From Deltaproteobacteria bacterium (lineage in GTDB: Bacteria; Myxococcota_A; Polyangia; Polyangiales; JADJMO01): a DNA stretch of 64,000 bases. Both the position numbers and the translations under genes were made by a program. The stretch covers positions 1-64,000 of the forward strand of contig JALHOE010000019.1 in NCBI GenBank assembly GCA_022843175.1. The letters run 5' to 3'. The number at the start of each line of letters is the position of its first letter. Position 1 is the first letter of the stretch. Of the stretch, positions 9,760 through 15,840 are shown piece after piece. The notes below the pieces were generated by a model. It was not told the origin of the DNA. It ran no database searches and worked only from the letters and a program-made list of their open reading frames with translations.

Positions 9760-11247
9760 GTGGGGACCGGTGATATCCGCGTCGAGGCGCTCGCATGGGC
9801 GCTTGGATCGAGCCATAGCCTCGCCCTCGCCGCGGGGCCGGATCGGCGTGTCGTGTTCGCGAACGTCGCGGCCGCAGCGCGCTGGCCGGACGCCACGAGC
9901 GGCCCGACGGAGTCGCTGTTCCCGGACGACGCGCGCGAGCGCCTCCGTGCCGCCGAAGCCGCTGCACTCGCGGGCGATCCGTCGTCGTTCCAGTGGGGCG
10001 AGCACGGTCCGGGGGGCGTGCGCACCTGGTTCGTGTGCACCCTTTCGCCGCTCCGCGAGGGCGACGCGATCGTCGGCTACCTCTGCTTGTCGACGGACAT
10101 CACCGAACAGAAGCGCACCGAGCTTCGCCTGCGCCGAACCGAGGAGCTGATGGTCGACACCCAGGGTGTCGCGCACCTCGGCACCTGGGACTGGGACATC
10201 AGCGAGCCGCATGCCACGTGGTCGGCCGAGCTGTATCGCATCTACGGGCTCACTCCCGAGACCTACGCGCCGAGCTACGAGGCCTACCTCACGATGGTCC
10301 ACCCCGACGATCGCCAACGGGTGATGGACGCGACCAACCGCGTGTTCAACGAGCACGTCCCCTACTCCCACGACGAGCGGATCTTCCGACCCGACGGCTC
10401 GATGCGTTACCTGCACACGTGGGCGCATCCGGTCCTCGACGACCACGGCAAGCTCACACGCCTCGTGGGTGTCTGCCAGGACATCACCGATCAGAAGCTC
10501 GCCGAGGAGCAGGTCAATCAGCTCAACGCCGACCTCGAGCGGCGCGTCGCCGAGCGCACTCGGACCATCGAGAACTCGATGCGCGACGTCGAGGCCTTCA
10601 ACGCCACGGTCAGCCACGACCTGCGCGCGCCGCTGTCGGTTATTCAGCTGTGCTGCGACGCGATCCCGCGCGCCGCCGGTGGGCCGCTGCCCGCGAGGGT
10701 CATGGAGCACCTGGAGCGCATCGAGCGCTCGACGGTCTTCATGACCGAGCTGGTGACCGATCTCCTCAAGCTCGCGCAGGTCGGACACGCGACGCTCGAG
10801 CGCGCGGAGCTCGATCTCTCGGCGATGAGCGAGGAGGTGCTCGCCAACCTGAAGCGCAGCCGCCCCGACCGAAAGGCGATCGTCGGCGTCGAGCCGGGGC
10901 TCCGCTGTTTCGCGGACGCCGCGCTGATGCGGGCGGTCCTCGAGAACCTGCTCGGCAACGCGTGGAAGTATTCGTCGCGTGTGCCCGTGGCTCGAATCGA
11001 GGTCGGTGCTTTCGCTCTGTCCAAGCCCGGCGCGCGTGCCTTCTTCATCCGCGACAACGGCGCCGGCTTCGACATGAAGGACGCGAGCCGTCTGTTCGCG
11101 CCGTTCGAGCGTCTGCACAAGTCGAGCGAGTTCGAGGGCACCGGCGTTGGCCTCGCCGCGGTTCATCGCATCATCGAGCGACACGGCGGACGCATCTGGG
11201 CCGAGGGCGAGCCGGGCAAGGGGGCCACGTTCTTCTTCGAGGTGTGA
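9760..11247 (+). CDS. Soluble PAS-PAS sensor histidine kinase
   Basis: A 495-residue protein without transmembrane segments. A divergent N-terminal PAS domain (about 8-115, ending in the PAC-like STDITEQKR) is followed by a PAS_3-type domain (about 130-248; LGTWDWDIS, HPDDR, FRPDGS, then DITDQK), a coiled coil (250-280), a HisKA domain with phospho-acceptor His286 in VSHDLRAP, and a HATPase_c domain with N box NLLGNAWKY (396-404), G1 DNGAGF (432-437) and G2 GTGVGL (460-465). This order resembles bacteriophytochrome-like and hybrid PAS kinases. No response regulator is adjacent, so it is an orphan kinase. The GTG at 9760 is a low-confidence start. Confidence 0.9.
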   Translation: MGTGDIRVEALAWALGSSHSLALAAGPDRRVVFANVAAAARWPDATSGPTESLFPDDARERLRAAEAAALAGDPSSFQWGEHGPGGVRTWFVCTLSPLREGDAIVGYLCLSTDITEQKRTELRLRRTEELMVDTQGVAHLGTWDWDISEPHATWSAELYRIYGLTPETYAPSYEAYLTMVHPDDRQRVMDATNRVFNEHVPYSHDERIFRPDGSMRYLHTWAHPVLDDHGKLTRLVGVCQDITDQKLAEEQVNQLNADLERRVAERTRTIENSMRDVEAFNATVSHDLRAPLSVIQLCCDAIPRAAGGPLPARVMEHLERIERSTVFMTELVTDLLKLAQVGHATLERAELDLSAMSEEVLANLKRSRPDRKAIVGVEPGLRCFADAALMRAVLENLLGNAWKYSSRVPVARIEVGAFALSKPGARAFFIRDNGAGFDMKDASRLFAPFERLHKSSEFEGTGVGLAAVHRIIERHGGRIWAEGEPGKGATFFFEV

Positions 11248-11308
11248 CGCGTGTACGAGCCAGTCGTCGCGCGCGTGTGAGCAACCGCCGACGTGCTACA
11301 CCGAGGAC

Positions 11309-11983
11309 ATGGTCGTTCGCTCGCTCTTCCTCCTCGCCTTCGCGGCGCTGCTCGGTTGCAGCTCGTCGACCACCTCCTCGCCCCCCATCGCCGAGGACGT
11401 CGAGGGCGACAGCGAAGAGGACACGACCCTCGAAGAGGACACCGAGCCGGAGGACACCGGCGTGGTCGTCACCGACACCGGGTCCACGGTCGACACCCGC
11501 GTCGACACCAAGCCGGGGTGCATCGCGCCGGGCTCGCCGACCCTCTGCGCGAGCTACAGCGACTGCTGCAACGACGCCGAGTGCATGAGCAACGCCGGTA
11601 AGCCCGCGCGCTGTTGTTACACCCGCTTGCAGAAGGTCACCTGCGGCACGAACGAGCAGTGTTGCGACGGCTATTGCACCGACGGCAAGTGCTGCGTCCC
11701 GCCGGGGAAGACGTGCGCCCTCAACTCGATGTGTTGCTCGAACTGGTGCGGCTCGCAGGTCACCGACGGCGCGGACGGCGGCGTGAAGCTCACCTCGTCG
11801 GTGTGCTGCGTGCCGGCCGGCAACGCCTGCGCCGGCGCCGACGACTGCTGCACGAAGAGCTGTGTCTCGGGCAAGTGCGCGTGCCTCGCGGCCGGCGCGG
11901 TTGTTCCCGCGTACGGGCAGGCGCTGTGTTGCAGCGGGTCGTACGTGATGGTCGAGGCCGGGCTCGGCTATCGCTGCAAGTGA
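11309..11983 (+). CDS. Cys-rich lipoprotein with acidic Asp/Glu/Thr linker
   Basis: A 224-residue protein. ATG 11309 starts a signal peptide with lipobox LLGC (Cys17). Residues 18-70 form a highly acidic Glu/Asp/Thr linker. The rest (about 72-224) is a Cys-rich domain with at least four repeats of a CC...C.S..C pattern (for example DCCNDAEC, QCCDGYC, MCCSNWC, DCCTKSC), resembling small knottin-like or granulin-like disulfide modules common in myxobacterial exported proteins. No catalytic residues are recognised. Inference: outer-membrane-anchored, disulfide-stabilised surface protein. Confidence 0.8.
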   Translation: MVVRSLFLLAFAALLGCSSSTTSSPPIAEDVEGDSEEDTTLEEDTEPEDTGVVVTDTGSTVDTRVDTKPGCIAPGSPTLCASYSDCCNDAECMSNAGKPARCCYTRLQKVTCGTNEQCCDGYCTDGKCCVPPGKTCALNSMCCSNWCGSQVTDGADGGVKLTSSVCCVPAGNACAGADDCCTKSCVSGKCACLAAGAVVPAYGQALCCSGSYVMVEAGLGYRCK

Positions 11984-12926: not shown

Positions 12927-12974
12927 GCCAAGAATTCGACGCGCGCGGGTGTCACATTCGGCGGGGCAGCGCGC

Positions 12975-13868
12975 ATGTACTCGTCGATGTCCCCCGCTGT
13001 CCGTTCGGCGAAGGTGGAGCTCTCGGAGCCGGAGCTGCGCCAATACCTCGCTCGTTACCTGCGCCGCCGCTTGCCCGCGGCCGACGCCGAGGACGCATTG
13101 CAAGCCGTGTATTGCGCGGCGCTCGAGGCGCAGCGGCTCCCCGAGGAGCGAACGGAGCTCCGTCGGTGGCTCACCGTGGTCGCCCGCCGGAAGGTCGCTG
13201 CGTATTACGAGCGCGCGTCCTCCGAGCAGCTCGGCGATCCGCCGGAGCTCGTCGCGCAACCGCCCTCGATCGAGGCCTCGTCGCTCCTGCGATGGGCGGA
13301 GCGCCAAGCCGCCGAGAGCCAGCTCGAGCACGTGAACGAGACCCTCGACTGGATGGCCCGCGAGAGCGACGGCGAGAAGCTCGAGGCGATCGCCGCCGAG
13401 GCCGCCGTTCCCTCGACGCGCGTGCGCCAACGCGTCTTCCGACTGCGCCGCTTCATGAAGGCGCGATGGGCGCTCGAGCTCGCGGCCGCGGCGCTCGGCA
13501 TCGTCCTCGTGCTTCTCTGGTCGATCTTCGCGCGTCGCACCGAGCCGGTCGCCAAGCCGGTCCCCGCGCCGGCCCCGTCGGCGTCCGTCGTCGCCCCTCC
13601 CGATGATGGGAGGGAACGCGCCGCCGAGCTTCGTCAGCGCGCGCTCAGGAGCTGTGCGCTCGCTCGCTACGACGAGTGCCTGAGCACGCTCGACGAAGCC
13701 GGCAAGCTCGACCCGGCGGGTGACTCCGAGCCCTCTGTTGTCGAGGCGCGCAAGACCGCCATCGAGAAGCTCACGCCGAGGGCTCCCACGCCGAAACCGT
13801 CGGTGAGCAAACCCACTTCGAAGAGCAAGAACGGCGGTACGCCGTCGACGGGGACGAGCGCCAACTGA
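12975..13868 (+). CDS. Sigma-70-family (ECF-like) protein with C-terminal TM helix and TPR-like tail
   Basis: A 297-residue protein. Residues 20-82 match sigma region 2 (DAEDALQAVYCAAL, then RRWLTVVARRKV, the recognition-helix region). Residues 115-163 match sigma region 4, with a helix-turn-helix around LEAIAAEAAVPSTRVRQRV. A clear transmembrane segment follows at 166-186, then a Pro/Ala/Ser linker and a helical, TPR-like segment (about 215-265) and a Lys/Ser/Thr-rich C terminus. The sigma part would be cytosolic and the tail periplasmic. No separate anti-sigma gene is adjacent, which suggests the factor is membrane-tethered. The transcription role is inferred from the domains; region 2 is divergent. 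Confidence 0.78.
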   Translation: MYSSMSPAVRSAKVELSEPELRQYLARYLRRRLPAADAEDALQAVYCAALEAQRLPEERTELRRWLTVVARRKVAAYYERASSEQLGDPPELVAQPPSIEASSLLRWAERQAAESQLEHVNETLDWMARESDGEKLEAIAAEAAVPSTRVRQRVFRLRRFMKARWALELAAAALGIVLVLLWSIFARRTEPVAKPVPAPAPSASVVAPPDDGRERAAELRQRALRSCALARYDECLSTLDEAGKLDPAGDSEPSVVEARKTAIEKLTPRAPTPKPSVSKPTSKSKNGGTPSTGTSAN

Positions 13869-13907: not shown

Positions 13908-14729
13908 ATGGCAACAGCAAGAGTCTTCATGGTGGTGGTGGGCGTCGTGGCTTGCGCGCGGAGCCGACCGCCCGAGATCGAGTTGAAGCCTCCCCCCGCG
14001 GGGGCGCTGAGCACGGTGACCGCGCCGGTCGCGAGCGGCACGGCGGTCGCCGCGCTCGCGCCCGAGCCGCCGAAGGAGCCCTTCACGCTGCGCGACGAAC
14101 GCGATCGCGCGATCGAGGTCTACCCGCCGATCACCCAGCAACCGCACGCGCCGATCGTCGTTTTCCTACATGCGACCTGCATGCAACCGTCGTCGGTCTG
14201 CGATGGGTTCGGGAGCGCGGGTCGCGATCCCGGCTGGCTCGTCTGCCCGTCCGGCAACTCCACCTGTTATGGCGAGCCCGATTGGCACGGCTCGGGCCCC
14301 GAGAAGGCGTCGTTCCTCGCGAGCGCGCTCGCGAGGGTCGAAGCGCACATACCGAGCTTCGTCGACGAGCGACCGGGCGTGCTCATCGGCTGGTCGCGCG
14401 GCGCGTTCGCCGCTCGCGACATCCTCGACGCCGCTGTCTCCGACGCGAAGTCGGCGTCGCTCGCGAAGCGATTTCGTGGGCTCGTGCTGATCGCCGCGCA
14501 CGTCGCGCCGCCGGCCGCCAAGTTGAAGCAGGCGGGCATCACGCGGGTGGTGATGGCCGCTGGCGACCACGACATGGCGAAGCCGACCATGACGACCGCC
14601 GTCGAGGCCTTGCGAAAGGGTGGCCTCGAGACGCGGTTCGTCTCGCTCGGCCCGATCGGGCATGCGTGGCCCAACGACTTCGAGACACGCATGCGCGAGC
14701 CGATCGCTTGGGCTTCCGGCACCCCGTAG
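13908..14729 (+). CDS. Alpha/beta-hydrolase-fold lipoprotein
   Basis: A 273-residue protein. ATG 13908 is followed by a hydrophobic segment ending in VVAC (a probable lipobox); an in-frame GTG at 13896 would add four residues. After a Pro/Ala/Thr/Val linker, the domain has the hydrolase topology: strand VVFLHAT, a nucleophile elbow GWSRG with Ser163, an acid in AAGDHD (Asp220 or Asp222) and His252 in IGHAWP. The substrate is unknown; PHB-depolymerase/esterase-like hydrolases have this layout. Four cysteines between the first strand and the elbow may form disulfides, consistent with export. Its stop codon directly abuts the stop of the convergent gene (14730). Confidence 0.82.
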   Translation: MATARVFMVVVGVVACARSRPPEIELKPPPAGALSTVTAPVASGTAVAALAPEPPKEPFTLRDERDRAIEVYPPITQQPHAPIVVFLHATCMQPSSVCDGFGSAGRDPGWLVCPSGNSTCYGEPDWHGSGPEKASFLASALARVEAHIPSFVDERPGVLIGWSRGAFAARDILDAAVSDAKSASLAKRFRGLVLIAAHVAPPAAKLKQAGITRVVMAAGDHDMAKPTMTTAVEALRKGGLETRFVSLGPIGHAWPNDFETRMREPIAWASGTP

Positions 14730-15536
14730 TCACGGATCGGCGCAACAGCGGAAGCCAACCTGGGGGAACGTCGTGCCGAAGGCGTATTCGGCAGGGCTCG
14801 CGCAGGGAAAGTCCCCGTCGCCATACGCGCGGCCCAGCGTGCGAACGCTCATGGGATCGCCGCTCGTCGCGAACAACACGAACGCGTCGAGCTCGGCGGC
14901 ATTGCCGGTCATGTCGTAAATGCTGTCGAACGGCGCCACGCTGCCGCGACACTGCGGGAACGATCGCACCGGCTGCAGTCCCCCGCCGCCGGTGTGACAC
15001 TTCGCGGCGTCGTAGCCGCTTCCGTATGGATACCGAGTGGCGAGCGCCCCGTTCTGACACGCGAAGACCCACTCGCTGCGCCCGTCGCTCGGAACGACCG
15101 GCTCGGCGCGATCGCCGATCTTGCCGCACAGACGCTTGCCGGCCCACTTGCAGTACGCGGTCGCGTGGCACCAGGTCATCGAGCGCACGGGCAGATCCTG
15201 ATTCGCCGGCGTGTCGTCGCGCGGCGGACGCGCGAGCTTCATGTCGTTGCAGTAGATGGGCGCGTCGTAGGGCGCGCCGGCCGCCGACACGAACTCGTTG
15301 AACTGCCGCACGGTGACCTCGGTGGTGTCGATGCAATACCGCGCGACGCCCGCGTCGATCAGCACCATCGCCGGACCATGCGTGCGCGCGCACCCGGTGA
15401 CGGCGGCATCAGCGGCATCAGCGGCATCAGCGGCATCGGAGGCAACAGCGGTGTCGATCCCCACGTCCGCGTTCTGCCCCTGGACCGCTTCTCCCTGGCA
15501 ACCCACGAGCAGGCACGCGAGCACGAGGTTTCGCAT
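14730..15536 (-). CDS. Lipoprotein with a SUMF1/formylglycine-generating-enzyme-like fold
   Basis: A 268-residue protein. ATG 15536 precedes a lipobox LVGC (Cys13). A short linker contains a tandem Asp-Ala-Ala repeat encoded by 9-base units at 15405-15440. The domain has SUMF1-fold hallmarks: TTEVTVRQFNEFV, PVRSMTWCHATAYCKWAGKRL, and a terminal VGFRC. The paired active-site cysteines and RGGSW motif of true formylglycine-generating enzymes are absent, so catalysis of that reaction is unlikely; many such domains in myxobacteria have unknown, perhaps binding, functions. Several extra cysteines suggest disulfides. It converges on the hydrolase lipoprotein with no gap. Confidence 0.8.
   Translation of the reverse strand: MRNLVLACLLVGCQGEAVQGQNADVGIDTAVASDAADAADAADAAVTGCARTHGPAMVLIDAGVARYCIDTTEVTVRQFNEFVSAAGAPYDAPIYCNDMKLARPPRDDTPANQDLPVRSMTWCHATAYCKWAGKRLCGKIGDRAEPVVPSDGRSEWVFACQNGALATRYPYGSGYDAAKCHTGGGGLQPVRSFPQCRGSVAPFDSIYDMTGNAAELDAFVLFATSGDPMSVRTLGRAYGDGDFPCASPAEYAFGTTFPQVGFRCCADP
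15405..15440. repeat. 9-base tandem repeat (about 4 copies) inside the SUMF1-like lipoprotein gene
   Basis: Four consecutive copies of GGCATCAGC (the last imperfect) encode Asp-Ala-Ala repeats in the linker of the minus-strand lipoprotein. The repeat preserves the frame, so copy-number change would alter linker length without breaking the gene. Confidence 0.85.
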
Positions 15537-15840
15537 CGGCACGGAGCGGAGAGTAGGGCCAACGCGCGCGGCAGTATCGGGGGCATCCACCCCTGCGGCG
15601 CCAAGCTTGCGCTCCGTTCAACCTGCGAGAATCCACGCGGATTGAAGCCCAAATCCTGCTGCGGATTGTGATCGATCCGTTGTCCGGCGCCGAGGACGCC
15701 GCGGCCGACTCCGGAACGACCACCGTCGACCGCAAACCGCGCCCAACGGTACGTTGTGCGGCGAGAGCCCCGCTCGATCTGCCGCACGGGCACCTGTCGC
15801 GCAAGACCCAAGCGTGTCGCTGACGTCGGGTGTGCGTAGC

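Follow-up and report, generated by a model that had tools for sequence, protein, structure and literature searches.

The gene at 12975..13868 (+) encodes a membrane-tethered ECF-type sigma factor of 297 aa as called, with a transmembrane (TM) helix and an extracytoplasmic tail in the same chain. Coordinates refer to the window, the whole 64,000-nucleotide stretch of DNA that was analysed. That a sigma factor is sited at the membrane, as a sequence-only reading had suspected, is supported by the predicted fold, the topology, conservation across a family and a promoter motif linked to that family. We consider it probable that the protein is autoregulated and carries its own sensor, directs an envelope regulon and is activated by proteolytic release.

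The open reading frame is coding: the GC fraction at codon position 3 is 0.87, a strong codon bias, and the protein is 34-56% identical to relatives from other genera. Because ATG 12975 falls within the -10-like element of the gene's own predicted promoter, translation probably begins at ATG 12987 (Met5), on a leaderless transcript. Proteins with the sigma, TM and tail architecture were searched for in 145 related genomes, in GTDB contigs and in the class. The family comprises 91 non-redundant members and is confined to Polyangiales (Polyangium, Sorangium, Minicystis, Byssovorax, Labilithrix and uncultured lines); outside this order, the same genomes, contigs and class gave weak matches only, all of them to ordinary ECFs. 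A frameshift-made fusion of two genes was ruled out by the recurrence of the fused architecture in the 91 members. The genome that contains the window has a second family copy, on contig C203, with 41% identity to the window protein.

Sigma region 2 (13032..13220 (+), residues 20-82) was identified by fold matches and by Pfam Sigma70_r2 (PF04542), with 26.1 bits against a curated cut-off of 24. Sigma region 4 with its HTH (13275..13457 (+), residues 101-161) gave no separate Pfam match in the window protein, and sequence models alone do not place it; it was assigned from an AlphaFold model, fold matches and conservation. The model, based on a 23-sequence alignment, has a mean pLDDT of 84.7 and contains the helices of both regions, while its low pTM of 0.38 means that the placement of the domains relative to each other is not fixed. 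AlphaFold helices and conservation put the sigma4 HTH right behind a short linker after sigma2, with neither sigma1.1 nor sigma3. In Foldseek, the top PDB matches were E. coli SigE/RseA and the SigE, SigH and SigL initiation complexes, and VIA-align of the model against solved sigma structures gave a Z of 10.8 across 144 residues. A different relative angle between sigma2 and sigma4 makes for a large global rmsd; taken singly, each domain fits the solved structures at about 2-4 A. The two sigma regions recognised in the sequence-only reading are thus borne out by Pfam for region 2 and by the fold, and the structural comparison with ECF factors proposed there recovers a sigma fold closest to SigE/RseA, SigH and SigL. 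A PDB sequence search returned weak ECF matches only and no other relative. Against TIGR02937, the NCBI sigma70-ECF superfamily model, the protein scores 29.1 bits, under a cut-off of 42.9 that is a naming threshold and not a defining ECF trait. By sequence it is a divergent member, and this score was counted against its being a tethered sigma factor. In the recognition helix, R151, R153, V154, R156 and R158 are invariant across the family.

The TM helix (13470..13538 (+), residues 166-188) was placed by an AlphaFold helix at 147-188, by hydropathy and by a positive-inside test. The 19-residue hydropathy of the window protein peaks at 2.35, at residue 167, with a single TM. A value of at least 1.6 is reached at the TM in 83 of the 91 non-redundant relatives, and the N-terminal flank carries the more positive net charge in 90/91. 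The sigma part is therefore cytoplasmic and the tail lies outside, a topology in line with that first proposed. Of 30 further sigma proteins encoded in the genome of the window, only one reaches the threshold, within its sigma domain. Together the hydropathy and positive-inside tests, across the family and against control sigmas, rule out a chance or false TM call.

In the model the sigma4 recognition helix runs unbroken into the TM, as one helix of residues 147-188, which leaves no space for a cytoplasmic anti-sigma domain. Pfam likewise matched no anti-sigma domain of the zinc-finger or FecR type between sigma4 and the TM. The neighbours of the gene in the window are an AlkA-like glycosylase, a lipoprotein alpha/beta-hydrolase and a lipoprotein with an FGE-sulfatase domain; none is an anti-sigma gene, and no recurrent anti-sigma-like neighbour was found among 74 family loci. 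This agrees with the absence of an adjacent anti-sigma gene that had been read from the window. A hidden anti-sigma domain or neighbour was also considered, and Pfam and the neighbourhood survey found none.

Beyond the membrane, a Pro/Ala-rich linker (13539..13607 (+), residues 189-211), recognised by its sequence and low pLDDT, leads to a TPR-like helical hairpin (13608..13772 (+), residues 212-266). Cys227 and Cys235 of the hairpin are both kept in 29/30 relatives and, lying outside the cytoplasm, may be linked by a disulfide. Residues 212-266 gave VIA Z values of about 8 against TPR proteins and against the soluble domain of the membrane protein TM1634; helical hairpins often give middling values of this kind, and "TPR-like" is accordingly used as a term of shape only. 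In that sense, and as a single hairpin with a capping helix, the earlier description of the tail as TPR-like is correct. A weak third copy of the two-cysteine tail (E 2e-4) was seen elsewhere in the same genome (G000:C175:5711-5833 (-)), and one family member (L160) bears two tandem copies.

Across the family the tail is TPR-like, calycin-like (beta-rich) or Pro-rich alone. On the sigma+TM tree, one clade of 16 bears the beta-rich tail in place of the TPR-like hairpin, and tails that are only Pro-rich occur in several lineages scattered over the tree. AlphaFold predicts a calycin-type barrel for a beta-tail member, with a Foldseek match of 5.6e-4 to fatty-acid-binding proteins and VIA Z values of 10.9 to Tp0751 and 9.7 to a Bacteroides lipocalin-family protein. 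The calycin fold often binds lipids or small molecules. Calycin/lipocalin-like tails were seen at loci L131, L138-L140, L143, L146-L149, L151, L152, L177, L194 and L197. The outside part thus appears to be an exchangeable module, as expected for a sensor. A two-cysteine TPR-like domain was also seen by eye at the C terminus of an apparent metallo-beta-lactamase-fold protein (L214, G104:C336), from which the two-cysteine tail looks promiscuous.

In one genus (G104, G123), the TM and two-cysteine tail also exist as separate proteins, and in several loci a sigma-like gene lies immediately upstream of the TM-tail gene. The sigma-like proteins match sigma families in NCBIfam throughout, the best at 8e-7, with some members unconvincing, and a hhalign profile comparison with the fused family was weak (probability 10%, E 0.003). 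The split form is likely, though not firmly, real, and would probably support the tail as a regulatory partner of sigma. At L165, L170, L171, L172 and L209 the separate TM protein also has a short cytoplasmic helical part, a possible anti-sigma domain. Upstream of separate TM-tail proteins at L164 and L165 lies the gene for a conserved but uncharacterised protein (about 200 aa; FPNG...DFGLAP.K...ARGTK.PKA), which recurs beside sigma-like/TM-tail genes in genus g56.

Promoter sequences were sought in 82 regions upstream of family genes by counting gapped word pairs in an unbiased way. A single signal dominated, GTCACACT followed about 14 nt further on by CGAT or CGAC (for example, in 30 regions against 0.7 expected). 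The refined motif, GTCACACT-N14-CGAYG, a bipartite promoter of the ECF type, lies upstream of 66/82 family genes, far above shuffles. Leaderless transcripts are predicted from the usual distance between the -10 and the start codon. The predicted autoregulatory promoter of the window gene (12951..12977 (+), 19.3 bits) reads GTCACATT-N14-GCATG, with a -35-like GTCACATT at 12951-12958 (+), a 14-nt spacer and a diverged -10-like GCATG at 12973-12977 (+) where the family consensus is CGAYG.

The exact motif occurs at 0.221/Mb in the 59 genomes that carry the family and at 0.044/Mb in the 86 that do not; the reversed pattern, used as a control, occurs at 0.027/Mb and 0.038/Mb respectively. The contrast in motif density gave Mann-Whitney values of 5e-13 overall and 2e-4 within the main family of genomes, which are optimistic because related genomes are counted as separate; the contrasts are nonetheless large. 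The motif also tracks the sigma clade. Its last -35 base is T in 1/16 of the calycin-tail clade as against 45/54 of the others, and its spacer is mostly 13 in the beta-tail clade as against 14 elsewhere. A search for target promoters, put forward with the sequence-only reading, has thus yielded a motif enriched only in family-carrying genomes. These comparisons strongly support the prediction that the family recognises GTCACACT-N14-CGAYG and activates its own gene.

For the regulon, the other exact motif sites in family genomes were collected, with sites in genomes lacking the family as the control. In family genomes 48/74 sites have a coding start within 22-61 nt; one of these 48 targets is a sigma gene (L258), and a few are orthologs counted in more than one species. 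The start lies 33-36 nt from the motif start in 34/48, and a signal peptide, TM or lipobox marks 42/48 products as exported or lipoproteins, by a simple hydropathy rule for signals. Among control genomes 8/22 sites have an ORF, none of the eight at 33-36 nt and one of the eight exported (Fisher 2e-4 for spacing and 5e-5 for export). Among the targets are L,D-transpeptidases (L326, L329), the alpha/beta-hydrolase in distal copies (L265, L271) and lipoproteins with no known function; one target near the C203 paralog is a lipoprotein with a cytochrome c domain. It is strongly supported, from motif positions in these genomes, that the family would control a small set of leaderless genes whose products are exported proteins and lipoproteins. 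Motif and regulon were derived from the relatives and the C203 paralog, not genome-wide for the window copy. Beside that paralog (G000:C203, L061:7461-9260), divergent motif promoters about 1 bp apart serve two lipoprotein genes, and one of the two products has a C-terminal cytochrome c domain.

The gene that adjoins the sigma gene in the window encodes an alpha/beta-hydrolase lipoprotein (13908..14729 (+)) with the lipobox VVAC and a GWSRG elbow (GxSxG); its ORF was called from GTG 13896, and ATG 13908 is the likelier start. Hydrolase homologs directly adjoin a family gene in 18 distinct loci, the window included. The homolog may share the strand of the family gene, lying downstream or upstream of it (upstream: all beta-tail cases), or the two genes may be convergent or divergent; the pairing is found with all three tail types. 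In many family loci the hydrolase has its own copy of the motif, and it is predicted to be a co-regulated target. A relative of the window hydrolase matches Abhydrolase_3. Assignment as a PHA depolymerase was rejected, the NCBIfam match being weak (0.0044) and the window copy having no Pfam match. No conserved operon partner other than the hydrolase emerged, as the other neighbour clusters track clade synteny and are not general. One of these, a divergent L,D-transpeptidase with a YkuD domain (neighbour cluster 10), shares the motif in the Polyangium/Sorangium line. In the window, the lipoprotein with the FGE-sulfatase (formylglycine-generating enzyme-like) domain adjoins the hydrolase at 14730-15590 (-), and a cysteine-rich predicted lipoprotein with no Pfam family lies at 11147-11983 (+).

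In the mechanism that we favour, tethering would hold the sigma part away from RNA polymerase or promoters until the tail senses an envelope signal and triggers regulated intramembrane proteolysis. The freed sigma part would then activate the envelope regulon and its own gene, and newly made tethered copies would reset the system. We prefer proteolytic release on two grounds: the HTH lies right at the membrane, and the sigma factor IutY, the one characterised protein of related design, is set free by Prc and RseP (PMC8999054). M50 intramembrane proteases are present in the genome of the window, as in every control genome.

A less likely course, to which we would give perhaps one chance for every three against, is that the tethered sigma factor acts in place, recruiting RNA polymerase at the membrane while the tail tunes its activity and no cleavage takes place. 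The leaderless messages for exported proteins would then arise where these proteins are secreted, in a transertion-like manner. Action in place is attractive because the predicted regulon consists almost wholly of exported proteins with leaderless geometry, and it accords with the lack of an anti-sigma domain between sigma4 and the TM; ordinary ECF regulons, however, are also envelope-rich. Moreover, the recognition helix enters the membrane no more than about 4 residues past the HTH, where it would probably clash with polymerase or promoter DNA, and the characterised precedent is proteolytic (PMC8999054). Somewhat more doubtful still is the stronger proposal that the sigma part never leaves the cytoplasmic membrane and starts the leaderless mRNAs for lipoproteins and other exported proteins there, with exchangeable sensors outside and with transcription, translation and export of the regulon spatially coupled. 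The predicted promoter and regulon make the choice between release and action in place directly testable for tethered sigma factors.

The window copy departs from the near-invariant family consensus at the end of region 2 (D76A, R79E, R83S). These changes, the -10 GCATG of its own promoter instead of CGAYG, and the location of all four perfect GTCACAYT-N14-CGAYR sites of the genome within 3.6 kb around the C203 paralog suggest another reading, in which the window gene would be a paralog that has drifted until its recognition of the -10 changed or began to fail, with the C203 paralog as the working member. We regard this as unlikely, since the whole architecture is preserved, together with the recognition helix and the link to the hydrolase, and the reading frame is uninterrupted and strongly codon-biased. 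Furthermore, the nearest relative, L063, which is 60% identical to the window protein and has N76, likewise has non-consensus -10 elements, TGATG for its sigma gene and CCATG for its hydrolase, which suggests changed specificity rather than decay. The pair may share a shifted -10 specificity, judged on three sites, and the window copy may be shifted or weakened in view of its -10 and residues 76, 79 and 83. That the protein is a sigma-like membrane adaptor or anti-sigma decoy and no transcription factor, as its tethering and its score under the NCBI sigma-70 superfamily cut-off might suggest, is very improbable given the invariant recognition-helix arginines and a promoter motif tied to gene presence and clade.

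If the favoured mechanism of tethering and proteolytic release is correct, sensor, anchor and sigma factor would lie in one chain, forming a one-protein route from envelope to gene without an anti-sigma factor, and the sensors of this chain would have been exchanged during evolution. The presence of peptidoglycan L,D-transpeptidases and lipoproteins in the predicted regulon makes it probable that the system deals with the state of the envelope in these predatory, social soil bacteria. Polyangiales are noted for their very large numbers of sigma factors, while mechanistic data on the order are few.

Membrane-fused ECFs are known, among them IutY and groups ECF48, ECF52 and ECF53 (PMC8999054, PMC5826349), so the contrast with classic ECF/anti-sigma pairs drawn in the sequence-only reading is true and yet has precedents. 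IutY of Pseudomonas putida (ECF243) combines a sigma factor and a membrane anti-sigma in one fusion protein, which Prc and RseP cleave (PMC8999054). Like the window protein, it has an ECF sigma factor, a TM and a periplasmic part in one chain with no separate anti-sigma gene. It differs in having an anti-sigma part and in acting in siderophore cell-surface signalling (PMC8999054), whereas the window protein has neither an anti-sigma domain nor a TonB receptor neighbour, and its recognition helix is continuous with the TM. ECF52 (SCO4117), ECF48 and ECF53 share the order of sigma, TM, Pro-rich region and extracellular domain, and positive autoregulation has been proposed for SCO4117, a further likeness to the Polyangiales family (PMC5826349, PMC8999054). 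These groups are actinobacterial, with a zinc-finger anti-sigma domain preceding the TM (PMC5826349, PMC8999054); the Polyangiales family has no zinc finger and is restricted to its order. It would work like the membrane-fused ECFs, yet by Pfam and the AlphaFold model it is not a member, because it is without their defining anti-sigma domain.

The promoter of ECF41, TGTCACA-n16-CGTC (PMC3426412), has a very similar -35, and this group also has a C-terminal extension and a regulon centred on a neighbour gene. The ECF41 extension, however, is SnoaL-like and the -10 is CGTC (PMC3426412, PMC8999054), in contrast to CGAY in our family; Pfam matched no SnoaL-like domain in the window protein, which has the TM and TPR-like tail instead. 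ECF42 shares a TPR-type C-terminal extension, but this consists of about 200 TPR-rich residues with no TM described (PMC8999054), as against one hairpin of about 55 residues beyond a TM. In Table 2 of PMC8999054, the groups ECF220 and ECF276 are listed as having members in Sorangium and extensions that have yet to be studied. Sorangium cellulosum carries both groups as well as members of the Polyangiales family, and the family may already be ECF220 or ECF276. The literature searched contains no description of the family's promoter, regulon or exchangeable tails. Membrane fusion of an ECF is thus already known, and what would be new here is a design that dispenses with the anti-sigma, together with its predicted promoter, its predicted regulon of exported proteins and its exchangeable tails.
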